Source: Neolecta irregularis DAH-3
Taxonomy: Eukaryota > Ascomycota > Neolectomycetes > Neolectales > Neolectaceae
Direction of reading: 5' to 3'
DNA: 41,744 nucleotides
Assembly: GCA_001929475.1 (NCBI GenBank)
Contig: LXFE01000417.1
Coordinates: forward strand, 1-41,744
The position numbers and the translations under genes were made by a program. Of this stretch, positions 30,450 through 36,084 are shown piece by piece. The number at the start of each line of letters is the position of its first letter. Position 1 is the first letter of the stretch. The notes below the pieces were generated by a model, which saw nothing but the letters and a program-made list of their open reading frames with translations, was not told the origin of the DNA and did no database searches.

Positions 30450-33049
30450 ATGAGCCCTATTCCGGATAGACAGTCTGTGTTTGATCAGATATTCAAGAGA
30501 CCGAAAGCTGGAGTAACACTAAACGCAGAAGAAAACAACATTTGCTGGATGAGTCTTACTAGATGGTTGACTAATTCGCTTTCTAATCATTCTCGGTGTA
30601 CTTTAGAGACCGATGTTGAAATTAGAGAGAAGTTATCATCAATCAGGGAAGCTGGTCTGGAAAGTCGCCTGAGTGCTTGGTATATTGGTAATTCGAAGAA
30701 CACAACTTAGCTGGTTGATCTTTTATAGACCAAGTGCGACGCGATTTTATAAAGGAGCATTCCTCGAGACTTCTAAATAGGGCGGTATGGATGTTTGATT
30801 GGGCTCTAGTTTATAAGATAGGTCCTATCAGACGATTTACAGTGCTTTATCATGGACCTTGCCTCAATTTATGAGAGTTACGAGCGCCCATTGGTACTAC
30901 TTGATACTGGGTAACTTTTATGCCCGAAGAGTCCTGAAATTACAGGGAAAAGAACATCGAGAAACTTCAATTATCGTTGCATGCACTATTCCAATATCAT
31001 ATTGATATTCCACGCCTGGCGCAAAGGATAAAATTATGGGTGTCGACTACAGTGACAGAATGGTCCGAAGAATCTATTACCGATGACACATTCCTAGAAA
31101 GCAGCCGTACTCTGGGGAAAGTTGGATTGGGTCGCCTCTTTCAAGGCATCGTTGCCGAGGTTATAGCTTCGAGTATGAAGGATTATATTTCAGAAAACTT
31201 TGCAAATGAATGGGAGGCCAGTGTGCTGCCACAAATGACGGATTGGATTTCTCAGAAAGTTTTCACATTCGTGCACCAAGTTTGCCAAAATCAGGATGAC
31301 AATCTTCGAGAAATTCTAGAAGGACTTGCGAAAAGGTCATTAGTAGATCTTAGGTATCGTCAGTTCCCAGATTGCTTCGCTGAGGTATAGGACATCTGAA
31401 TTATTCGATATTATAAAGGACTTTCCTTATTCAGAAAGCGCTATCGATGATTTGAAAGTGCCTAAGTAGCTCAACTCTTCACTGATAATCAAGCGATGCG
31501 TGAGTAATACACCACAAAGGACTCAGATAGTCCAGACCTTCCAGGAAGCGTATGCTGCTCAACAGGCTCTGCCTAATTGTCATAGCTGTCGCAAGAGAAT
31601 GCTTCATCCTGGTGCCCACACATCAGATATCATCTCTCAATATATCTCAACGATGAAAGCCTTTCGGATCCTTGAGCCACATGGAGTACTTCTAGATAAG
31701 GTTGCGCGACCGATACGCCGATACCTAAGGCTAGTGCTTTTCCTGATGTTTATCTGATATGTAGAGAGCGAGAGGACACCATTCGATGCATAATGACGGG
31801 CCTTGTCGGCGAAGATTCTGATTTAGCAGACGAGCTCATGCAAGAAACCGCTGAAGTTGATATCGACGACTTTGATGATATGAACTGGATTCCAGATCCT
31901 GTTGATGCTGGTCCTGATTATAGAAAAGACAATGGAGATGTGATTGCCGCTTTGGTATCAATTTACGAAAATACAGAAGTATTTGTGAAAGAATTACAAA
32001 TTCTGCTGGCAGATCGACTATTGGCCTTGGTAGATTACGATATGGATAGAGAGGTATATTTATCTAAATAGACGACAACTGAAAGCATAGATTCGTAACA
32101 TAGAATTGCTCAAACTACGTTTCGGTGAAGCGAATCTTCAGATGTGCGATATTATGTTGAAAGATATTGCAGATTCGAAGCGTCTGGATGATCAGATTCA
32201 CGGAACTAAGTTTGAAGAGATAAAAGCCTCTTTTTCTCCGAATTTTGCTAACTGGTAGTCCATTGCCCAAGGGTTTATCTTATCAAGGCTGTTCTGGCCC
32301 GCGTTTCGAACTGAAAATATAATTCTGCCGTCTGAATTAAATTTGTATGTTTCTCAAGAAGTGCTCTTCTGATCGAAAGGGAACTGCGAAAGTATGCTAG
32401 AGCCTTTGAAGAATTAAAGCCATCCCGAAAACTCGAAGTTCTTCCTCATCTTGGATGGGTGGACATTGAACTCGATTTGGAAGATCGGCACTTGGCACTT
32501 TCGGTTACACCTGCTCAAGCTACTGTTATTTATCAATTTCTTGAAACCGATACAAATACACTAGACTCTCTTCTTGAATTGTTTAACAACGATCGTGCAT
32601 CCACTCTCCGGGCTATATTGTATTGGGTAAGAATTGGGGTTTTGAAAGAAACATCAAAAGATCAATATTTTCTCCTGGAGAAGGCCGAGTCTTTCGCACC
32701 AGGTACCCTGAAACCGGATAGAGCTCATGGTTAGGTGCTGCATCAGTTGTTGAACAGCCGGTTTCTGCAATTCAATCAGCTGTCGATATTTCTGCCTCTG
32801 AGATGCAAATGTACTGGTATATACGTATCTATTCAGGATGTTGACTAACCTGGCAGGTCTTATATTACGAATATGCTGAAGAACATGGGTGCACAACCAG
32901 CAGAACGTATACAGTCAATTCTTACAATGCTCGTTCCGCCGCCGAATCTCTATTCAAAAAGTTTGAATGAGCTTCAAGCATTCTTGGAAGAGATGGTCAA
33001 TGAGGAGAAATTGGAGTTCGTTACCGGAAATTATAAGCTAAAAAAGTGA
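30450..33049 (+). CDS. APC2: Anaphase-promoting complex subunit 2 (APC2, cullin-like)
   Basis: About ten short exons. N-terminal exon 30450-~30690 starts MSPIPDRQSVFDQIFK. Following exons carry helical cullin repeats, including LGRLFQGIVAEVIASSMKDY. The central block reads LEPHGVLLDKVARPIRRYL, then RDDTIRCIMTGLVGE. The cullin-homology segment includes LLADRLLALVDYDMDRE, then IELLKLRFGEANLQMCDIML and LEVLPHLGWVDIELDLEDR. It ends with the APC2-type winged helix (ITNMLKNMGAQPAERIQSIL ... EEKLEFVTGNYKLKK). APC2 is the scaffold that holds the RING subunit APC11 in the APC/C ubiquitin ligase, which triggers anaphase. Early exon edges were not all fixed; the intron with donor GTATATACG near 32817 was read through by frame. 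Confidence 0.93.
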
Positions 33050-33490
33050 GGTCTGACTTATCCTCTACACGAGCTTTTTATGCGTGCTTTTTCCATATCC
33101 ACCAAGGAAATCCAAGCGTTTTGGCCTTATGTTAAAGGAATAACGTGATAACCAGTTCCGCCCAAGTCAAAATATTCAATCGATTAGAGTTGATCTCTGC
33201 CCTTGAGCTCTTTTATCTCGTATGTTCCCAAGGAATCAGTGTCGTGGAATATAAACAGTTGCATGGTGTATTTTTGTGCGATTAATATTATATCTTGTCA
33301 GTCAGGTACTAGATCGAATCTCAATTGATAAATTTTGTGAGCCTGTTTCAAACGACTGTATTTAAAACAACAATGTAACTTAGGCAAATCACTGTAAATT
33401 ATCTTTCCCATGGGTTGATGGTGGAGGATCAAGTTCGGACTCCACCAAGTCGTATCACGTCCACGCAATCCCAATTATCACTCCTACATA
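33050..33490. other. APC2-PUP1 intergenic region with a 7-bp inverted repeat
   Basis: About 440 bases. An open stretch at about 33150-33290 has no recognised product. At 33420-33446, GGTGGAG and CTCCACC form a perfect 7-bp stem around a 13-base loop, about 45 bases before the PUP1 ATG. The yeast proteasome box GGTGGCAAA is not present exactly. Confidence 0.4.
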
Positions 33491-34518
33491 ATGGTTAGCG
33501 CGCGGTTAAACGTTCCAAATCCAGGATTTGATTTCGATAATTACCAGAGAAACGCTCTGCTAGCTGTAAAAGGACAGAAACCGCCAAAAACCACTTCGAC
33601 TGGAACGACCATCGTAGGATGCTTGTACAAAGCCGATGACGGGTATATGTTCTTCGAATCTCCTGTTTATGAGATAGTTCAACTGGGGTATGTATTGGAG
33701 CAGATACAAGGGCTACATCTGGACCAATAGTGGCTGATCCTAATTGTGAGAAAATTCATAAAATTTCTGCGAACATTTGGTCCATAACCGCTTGCAATAT
33801 TACTGTTTCTTATGCTTTGTAGGTGTTGCGGAGCCGGAACTGCCGCGGACACAGAATTTACGACAAATTTGATCAACTCGCAGCTAGAGTTACATAGTTT
33901 ATGGACTGGTCGGCGTCCGAGAGTAGTCACAGCATTAACTATGCTGAAACAGCATTTATTCAAACACCAGGGACACATTGGAGCATATTTGGTACTTGGC
34001 GGTATCGTTTGTTTAGAGTAGAGTGAAATAACTTACACGATAGGTGTCGATCCTACCGGAGCACATCTGTTCACTGTCCATGCACATGGATCAACGGACA
34101 AACTGCCATTTGTATGGCCATGCTCACTTCCTTTCTAAATCTGTAGGTTACAATGGGATCTGGCTCCCTAGCGGCGATCTCTGTATTCGAAACCAGATGG
34201 GTTAAAGATTTGTCTCGAATTGATGCTATGGAACTGGTCAAAGATGCAATTGAAGCGGGTATCTTCAACGATCTCGGTTCAGGGAGCAACTGTGATGTCT
34301 GTGTGATTGAAAAGGACAAGGTATGGTGCAGCTTTTTGCAGCTTCTTCACATTCTCTAGACTCAGATGTACAGACATTACAGTGAACCGAATGAGCGCCA
34401 ACCGAAACAACAAAGTTATAAATTTCCTCATGGGACAACAGCCATTCTAAAGAGCGATATCTCCAAGTTTGTTACAATTGAAGATGTCGCAGGAGAAGAT
34501 ATGGAGGTCGATACTTAG
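33491..34518 (+). CDS. PUP1: 20S proteasome subunit beta-2 (trypsin-like activity)
   Basis: Exons are 33491-33642, 33678-33779, 33823-34001, 34044-34111, 34147-34320 and 34366-34518; introns 35-45 nt GT-AG; 275 residues. The propeptide ends at TSTG and catalytic Thr1 is residue 39 (GTTIVG). Then [14 protein letters not shown] with the active-site Asp, NCEKIH with the Lys position, [31 protein letters not shown] and [15 protein letters not shown]. Beta-2 is one of three active subunits of the core particle and cleaves after basic residues. The propeptide is removed autocatalytically during assembly. A short tail (EDMEVDT) follows the fold. Two introns fall in strongly conserved blocks (ISANIW/CCGAG and LGG/VDPTG), which makes those joins certain. 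Confidence 0.96.
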
Positions 34519-34969
34519 GCATTTTAATCAATATGAAAGGGTGTATGCACATAGGATCTTGTGTTTTGTTCTCCCAAGCTTAACAAAGTATATCCTGGGC
34601 AGTGATGTATAGAATCCATATTGATTCATAATGGATTCATGAATTTGAATCAGTGTTGCTGATGGACCAAAAGACCATGGACTTTTTGCAAAGTCTGGCC
34701 CATCGACTTTTCTGAGGGTCAGGCCCACTGATGAACCATAAAACATTACTTTTGCAAGTAGTCTCAATCTCAAACTATCAATCTCTAGTAGAGAAATGGT
34801 ATTAAAGTGTGACTAAACAAAAGTCTGACACACGTGTTGTCTTCCCATATGGTAAATGTTGGTGGGTATTATGTGCCTGCTCCTAAATCTCCAACCCACG
34901 TCATTTTGTCTTCCCTATTTCTGCTTTCAGCTCCCATCCATAAATTAGTCTGCCCCTTTTTTATTCGCT
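34519..34969. other. PUP1-ARL8 intergenic region
   Basis: About 450 bases. It contains GGCCCA-type words near 34695 and 34727 and several ATTCAT words near 34630-34650, all short and imperfect. The frame at 34834-35037 overlaps ARL8 exon 1 in another phase and is a shadow. No other feature seen. Confidence 0.35.
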
Positions 34970-35799
34970 ATGGCCGTTTTCAAGAAGTTCTGGCAATGGC
35001 TGCTCTCGTGGTTTTGGCAGGCAAGCAAATCTTATAGCATGACTCTGACTTTCAAAGACTGAAATGGAGGTATAGCAAACCTGACTATGAGATTTCTTTG
35101 TACAGAAGCTGATGCAACTCGATTTTAGATCACCATCATTGGTCTTCAGAACAGCGGGAAGACCACCTTGCTTAATCTTTTGTCGGATGGTGACTTTATT
35201 AGCGATACTATTCGTATTTTCATAATGAAGGCTGTTTGCTGATAACTTTAGCGTACTTGCTGCTTCTGTGGCCGTGTTTTACTATCTAGCACCGTTGGCT
35301 TTAATTTTCGCAAGGTAATACGTGGTAATGTGACTCTAAAATGGTGCTGTTGTCTATATCTTCCAGAGAAACTGATTCATCAGTTGGGATCTTGGAGGAC
35401 AAGCGCGATTTCGAAGCATGTGGGATCGATATTGTCGAGGGATAAATGCTATAGTGTAAGCAGTCCTAATTTTTCGTATCCGTGATAACATGCAGCTTTG
35501 TGATCGATTCTTCTGACCACGATAAGCTGGCTACCTCTGCTGCAGAGCTCCACAATCTTCTCTCAAAGCCCGCGCTTGATCTCATTCCGCTTCTCGTTTT
35601 AGCGAATAAAAGGGATATGCCTAAAGCCCTAACCGTTGATGAAGTCATTGAGCAGATGTACCTCAATTATCTTGAAAGTGGAGCTAAACGGCATAGTCGT
35701 CTTGATTCGATTAAGGGTCGCGAGGTCAGTTGTTACTCAATTTCAGCTAAGGATAACTTAAATATCGAGCCCATCATAAGTTGGCTTGTTGCTCGGTAG
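34970..35799 (+). CDS. ARL8: ARF-like small GTPase ARL8
   Basis: Exons are 34970-35020, 35058-35069, 35129-35213, 35252 (one base), 35290-35343, 35384-35455, 35496-35657 and 35697-35799; exactly 540 coding bases, 179 residues (animal ARL8 is 186). The N-terminal amphipathic helix ([17 protein letters not shown]) replaces lipidation. G1 is GLQNSGKTT, switch I is [11 protein letters not shown]3 is [13 protein letters not shown], then [17 protein letters not shown]4 NKRD and CYSISAKDN (G5). ARL8 links lysosomes to kinesin and tethers in animals and acts on endo-vacuolar membranes in fungi; budding yeast lacks it. The gene is splicing-odd: intron 1 (35021-35057) is GC-AG, exon 2 is only 12 nt, and switch I needs a 1-nt exon. 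Intron 35658-35696 is 39 nt, so retention would not shift frame; alignment to ARL8 says it is removed. Confidence 0.92.
35021..35057 (+). other. GC-AG intron 1 of ARL8
   Basis: Donor CAG|GCAAGC, acceptor CAAAG, 37 nt. Splicing joins SWFWQ to [17 protein letters not shown], matching the ARL8 pattern FWKEEMELTLVGLQ. Reading through reaches TGA. Confidence 0.85.
35214..35289 (+). other. Two adjacent introns flanking a 1-nt exon at 35252
   Basis: Intron A is 35214-35251 (38 nt, GTATTT...CTGATAACTTTAG) and intron B is 35253-35289 (37 nt, GTACTT...TATCTAG). The single base C at 35252 lies between them. The codon CCC is assembled from 35213, 35252 and 35290 and yields the conserved Pro before TVGFN. 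A single 76-nt intron would shift the frame. Confidence 0.75.
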
Positions 35800-36084
35800 A
35801 TTTCATGTTCTTCAGACTTCTCACATCCAGGGCTAAGCGGTGAACGGGTGTTCATATTGATACCTTATTCACTTTTATCTTGGCGTTTATCCATATGGCA
35901 TGTGTTGTTTTGGTATCTTTGATTTGGTATGAGATGAAGGACTAACTGTTTGCATCTGTTTTCGTTTTCGTTCGTTTTTTAAGTCGAGAGAGGAGTTTTC
36001 ACACATGAAATTAAAAATTCAAGGATTAGATAGGATTCTGATGTAGATTCGTCAGCCAAGATTGCTCAATTCAACCTTTTTTCA

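Follow-up and report, generated by a model that had tools for sequence, protein, structure and literature searches.

A probable one-nucleotide exon between two short introns in the ARL8 gene of Neolecta irregularis

Nuclear exons of a single nucleotide have been described in plants and in a filamentous fungus. In plants, APC11 carries one that is reported as constitutive in Arabidopsis (PMC4674806; also PMC8831610), and VPS55 carries another that is described as alternatively spliced in some lineages (PMC8831610). In Fusarium, the one-base exon of CYP621A was documented by the comparison of 20 orthologues and by SRA reads from two species, and its authors present it as the second one known and the first from a fungus (PMC12940212). 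According to their origin model, a base of the exon was lost and a cryptic base within the intron compensates for it (PMC12940212). As for the splicing of such exons, the authors of the Arabidopsis work favour intron definition combined with recursive removal (PMC4674806), and the introns that flank plant microexons are said to be likely removed consecutively (PMC8831610). ARL8 is named in none of the 15 papers listed, out of 121 literature matches.

Here, we examine a locus of the fungus Neolecta irregularis DAH-3 at which the ARL8 gene very probably holds a one-nucleotide exon, C35252, between two complete and ordinary-looking introns of 38 and 37 nt. An earlier note on this DNA had called one-base exons almost unknown. 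They are rare indeed, and the wording is somewhat strong in view of the RNA-supported cases in APC11, VPS55 and Fusarium CYP621A. We will refer to the whole stretch of DNA that was analysed, 41,744 nucleotides long, as the window.

The ARL8 gene and its exons

The coding gene occupies positions 34970-35843 of the forward strand and specifies an ARL8-type small GTPase. Its translation contains a complete Arf domain (Pfam PF00025, E 5.7e-46), and its best relative of solved structure is ARL8A (4ile_A, E 6.3e-68), against E values near 1e-34 for the best non-ARL8 structures, those of Arf1 and the other Arf families. Two of the ARL8-like structure rows bear the depositors' names ARL10B and ARL10C. 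All five strings of the GTPase motifs are present in the translation. On the strength of its Arf-family domain and of its closest solved relatives being ARL8, the predicted protein is a member of the ARL8 GTPases; its nearest named relatives among the matches listed come from Saitoella and Protomyces. Saitoella is also the best match of RecQ, and on both counts the fungus is Taphrinomycotina-like.

The accepted gene model comprises nine exons, of 51, 12, 85, 1, 54, 72, 162, 99 and 13 nt in order, and eight introns, of 37, 59, 38, 37, 40, 40, 39 and 35 nt. The coding sequence amounts to 549 bases including the stop and encodes 182 amino acids in an intact frame. The sum of 540 bases given in the earlier note has to be corrected: the TAG at 35797-35799 is not the end of the gene, and the eighth intron had been missed. 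This apparent stop sits within that last intron, near its first bases.

Much of the model can be read against P0001, a protein of 163 amino acids (source JGI; two contigs, the longest of 1532 bases) that is 96% identical to ARL8 over 89% of the query. It reads MEITIIG...DTIPTVGFN...LVARAKR, so that the predicted residues are unbroken at the site of the one-base exon, and it crosses six ARL8 intron sites, with A/B taken as one site: that of intron 2, the A/B site and those of the four introns downstream. When genes are called on metagenome contigs, this is usually done without splicing. Given this and the uninterrupted reading of P0001, its contig is probably a transcript (cDNA) of a close relative, which could itself have one intron at the A/B site. 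P0001 begins at the methionine of exon 2, which fits equally well an unspliced intron 1 or a cut contig.

The features, all on the plus strand, are as follows. Exon 1 (34970-35020) is supported by the alignment of the protein to 4ile_A from residue 2. Intron 1 (35021-35057, 37 nt, GC-AG) joins FWQ to TEMEIT upstream of the start of P0001, and its score lies at percentile 46 in the full splice model and 44 in the held-out one, both of which are detailed below. The 12-nt exon 2 (35058-35069, TEME) is matched by a further protein, P0002, which has FWTTEMELT where ARL8 has FWQTEMEIT. Intron 2 (35070-35128, 59 nt) is required for ME-ITIIG, the reading of P0001; it has a poor branch-point match and falls at percentile 1.9 in the full model and 0.6 in the held-out model. 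It is the lowest-scoring accepted ARL8 intron and the weak spot of the gene model. Exon 3 (35129-35213) ends on the first C of the Pro50 codon. It is followed by intron A (35214-35251, 38 nt, GTATTT...TGCTGAT...TTTAG), the one-nucleotide exon (35252-35252, C, the second base of the codon) and intron B (35253-35289, 37 nt, GTACTT...TTTTAC...TCTAG), both introns being placed by splice score. Exon 5 (35290-35343) opens with the last C of the Pro50 codon and continues with TVGFN.

The next two introns (35344-35383 and 35456-35495, 40 nt each) are placed by splice score and crossed by P0001, and the exons that follow them, exon 6 (35384-35455, WDLGGQ...) and exon 7 (35496-35657, FVIDSS...VIEQ), by translation. 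The intron at 35658-35696 has a length, 39 nt, that is a multiple of three, and it is recognized from the fact that P0001 does not have the 13 extra residues; exon 8 (35697-35795) then follows from translation. Removal of the last intron (35796-35830, 35 nt) brings ...LVAR in front of AKR-stop, in exact agreement with the LVARAKR C-terminus of P0001, and the intron scores at percentile 76 in the full model and 88 in the held-out model. Exon 9 (35831-35843), given by P0001 and by translation, holds the end of the R codon, AKR and the stop. ARL8 thus has two very small internal exons, one of 12 nt after a GC-AG intron and one of 1 nt. GC-AG introns may be frequent in this genome: they make up 16 of the 263 introns of the self-trained model, some of which are probably false, and several have good scores and lengths that are not divisible by three.

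The base that probably completes Pro50

Between SDTI, which ends at 35213, and TVGFN, which starts at 35290, there are 76 bases, as the earlier note had it. Its reading that a single GT-AG intron 35214-35289 would put the frame off by one is borne out by the translation: when the interval is removed whole, the sequence becomes ATT CCA CCG..., with a shifted frame and a premature stop. Splitting the interval at AG-C-GT does yield the proposed introns of 38 and 37 nt, both GT..AG, with a 1-nt exon at 35252. When C35252 is retained, the sequence reads ATT CCC ACC GTT GGC (I-P-T-V-G), and the proline codon is assembled from three exons, C(35213), C(35252) and C(35290), giving I-P-T-V-G-F-N just as the note had described. 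The kept base takes the second position of the codon, where only C gives proline. The alignment column of Pro50 is proline in all 120 homologues listed (of 1354 found), and threonine comes next in every one of them.

We searched for a single intron that would restore the frame, and none was found among all GT-AG or GC-AG introns of at least 25 nt with a donor at 35200-35259 and an acceptor up to 35299. The predicted 1-nt exon is the sole canonical-intron reading found that keeps both the frame and the proline codon. The site thus has what is expected of a single-nucleotide exon, in that skipping the C breaks the frame, its inclusion restores a conserved proline, and on each side there is a canonical intron with GT..AG ends, a branch-like motif and a normal length. 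In the ARF-like paralogue at L004, an intron seems to lie before TTIPTVGFN and switch I to be uninterrupted, so the ARL8 intron position is not shared there.

Splice signals, chance and rival readings

The splice signals were scored with a full gene model that was self-trained from generic seeds and not from RNA. Training covered the window and 20 further stretches (214,914 non-N bases), with the intron cost kept fixed and a flank rule of 75 nt. The 263 training introns of this model are flanked on each side by an exon of 75 nt or more, and no ARL8 intron is among them. Their median length is 37 nt, with 237 of the 263 at 31-43 nt, none at 63-88 nt and 11 above 88 nt, so that the earlier claim that introns of 38 and 37 nt are of normal size agrees with these model-derived introns. 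A branch-like motif, C/T-T-N-A-Y, has its A 6-11 nt ahead of the last base of the intron in 249 of 260 cases. In this model, intron A scores 10.84 (percentile 69), intron B 8.14 (percentile 25), and the single 76-nt intron -0.76 (percentile 0). A held-out model, trained on the 20 other stretches without the contig of the window (174 training introns), gives 11.33 (percentile 78), 8.49 (percentile 31) and 0.28 (percentile 0), respectively. The single 76-nt intron falls below all 174 held-out training introns, none of which is 63-88 nt long; introns A and B both score within the range of the training introns in either model. Their donors (TTC/GTATTT and AGC/GTACTT) are below average, at percentiles 21 and 27, and the preferred G before GT is absent in both.

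The gene paths of the full and held-out models both include exon 35252-35252. The full-model path has its flaws: ARL8 is fused with upstream genes (30450-35843), intron 2 is misplaced, and an 11-nt exon (35203-35213) stands ahead of intron A. The held-out path starts at 35187 without the 5' exons, reads exons 35187-35213, 35252 and 35290-35314 around the site, and agrees with the accepted gene only at introns A and B, 35658-35696 and 35796-35830. Its introns 35315-35366, 35416-35526 and 35725-35769 were not accepted, and the last of these, found in both paths, is contradicted by P0001.

Chance was assessed for 1-nt exons only, among the lengths that would restore the frame, with two sets of controls: dinucleotide shuffles of the 76-mer in which the first and last six bases were fixed, and real 76-mers with GT..AG ends, drawn from the collected genomic sequence and scored together with the flanks of ARL8. 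An AG-C-GT suitably placed, i.e., with about 20 nt or more on either side, is not rare by itself (1211 of 20,000 shuffles; 46 of 1377 real 76-mers). A split in which the weaker intron scores at least as high as intron B was obtained in 1 of 20,000 shuffles and in none of the 1377 real 76-mers. If a weaker-intron score of 5 or more is enough, 22 of 20,000 shuffles and 1 of 1377 real 76-mers qualify, and so do 61 of 20,000 shuffles if any base is allowed as the 1-nt exon.

Across the 214,914 non-N bases, the full model predicts three 1-nt exons among 389 internal exons, including that of ARL8. We disbelieve the other two: at 34540 a neighbouring intron measures 133 nt, and at L035 (minus-strand coordinate 3652) a neighbouring intron scores 1.52. 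No hidden exon of a multiple-of-three length between introns scoring above 6 was found in the 26 of 263 introns of at least 44 nt, a test that is blind to 1-nt exons because the introns concerned are already in frame. A 6-nt exon is also predicted at L029:3232-3237 (+), with flanking introns that score 11.56 and 9.98, between exons of 210 and 123 nt. The G+C content is 50-53% at L007, L012, L013 and L021 vs 42% in the window. The assembly may be uneven in composition, or it may be a mixed bin.

One rival is a single 76-nt intron accompanied by a one-base assembly error, or by a flanking exon that truly differs by one base. One-base errors do occur in assemblies and the single-intron reading is out by just one base, but this explanation needs an intron of a size that neither training set contains. 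It also requires two well-scoring introns around just the base needed to have arisen by chance, as happened in a single shuffle, while the remainder of the 549-base frame is intact; we therefore consider it very improbable. That the frame is lost in the single-intron reading might also be taken as the mark of a frameshifted and decaying ARL8 copy. The intact 182-residue frame of the eight-intron gene and its full Arf domain (PF00025, E 5.7e-46) speak against decay, and a second ARL8 copy was not found in the assembly (8.96 Mb in 363 contigs, in which copy counts are lower bounds), so this reading is hardly credible.

A nested pair of introns (stwintron), or another removal in two steps without a separate exon, has in its favour that stwintrons have been reported in several Ascomycota. 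However, nothing is missing from intron A or from intron B, while the internal intron of a stwintron breaks up a splice signal, and removal of the full interval leaves the frame off by one. With junctions shifted slightly from these edges, the frame is kept only by a C-G-C codon and an intron with GT..TA or TA..AG ends, and the resulting arginine clashes with the proline of all 120 homologues listed; we regard this possibility as extremely improbable. The earlier note had offered sequential or stwintron-like removal as an alternative to the one-base exon. Sequential removal is indeed likely, as a route to the 1-nt exon and not as an alternative to it, and it is the nested form that fails on the arginine.

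Splicing of the pair and comparison with known one-base exons

Coming back to the one-nucleotide exon, introns A and B would be recognized separately, through intron definition by length, because the introns of this genome are nearly all 31-43 nt long and the 76-nt composite is outside this range. Work in S. pombe has reportedly dealt with intron definition and a microexon. Only one base separates the acceptor of intron A from the donor of intron B, so two spliceosomes could not sit together on these sites, and the introns would have to be taken out in turn. Either order would be possible since each intron keeps complete sites once the other is gone; the score of the intron B donor goes from 2.96 to 2.29 when intron A is removed. 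The skip product, with 35213 joined to 35290, would likely be a target of nonsense decay and not a source of protein, because its frame shift brings an early stop.

This locus likely extends the range of one-base exons to another lineage and to a conserved GTPase gene, and its intron pair meeting at AG-C-GT would offer a clean test case for intron definition. It also bears on annotation: a gene finder or read aligner that imposes a lower limit on exon or anchor length would take ARL8 for a broken gene, and such exons are missed in this way.

How does it compare with the cases described so far? APC11 and VPS55 likewise have, as described, a one-base internal exon needed for the frame between complete introns, for which consecutive removal is proposed; they differ in being unrelated plant genes with RNA support. 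Fusarium CYP621A is closer, as a nuclear gene of a fungus in which the exon was first inferred from a phase mismatch. In both, the kept base is the middle one of a codon, that of the Gly of PKG in CYP621A and that of the Pro of switch I in ARL8, with G in AGGGT for the former and C in AGCGT for the latter. The Fusarium exon is backed by SRA reads and 20 orthologues; that of ARL8 is predicted from a single locus. The origin model proposed for CYP621A would fit ARL8 too. Stwintrons, as described in Ascomycota, resemble the ARL8 pair in that two introns leave one short interval in succession, but the external intron of a stwintron has a splice signal that is split by the internal one, whereas the ARL8 pair consists of two complete introns with one retained base between them. 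One-base exons between two introns are also described in placozoan cox1 (PMC5436844) and in Ophiostoma rnl (PMC12308204). Both genes are mitochondrial and do not involve the nuclear spliceosome; the introns of the Ophiostoma case belong to group II.

The one-base exon of ARL8 thus appears rare and not unprecedented: a Taphrinomycotina-like fungus provides one more case, and a compact one. Its interval measures 76 nt; that of CYP621A is 139 nt in F. graminearum and that of APC11 is 422 nt in Arabidopsis, a comparison that takes in two of the three nuclear genes described earlier. Tentatively, and with more doubt than confidence, one could see in the ARL8 interval the most compact nuclear one-base-exon cassette described to date, which would be spliced reliably by intron length alone in a lineage of near-fixed 31-43-nt introns, and whose skip product would feed nonsense decay as a control of the ARL8 level.
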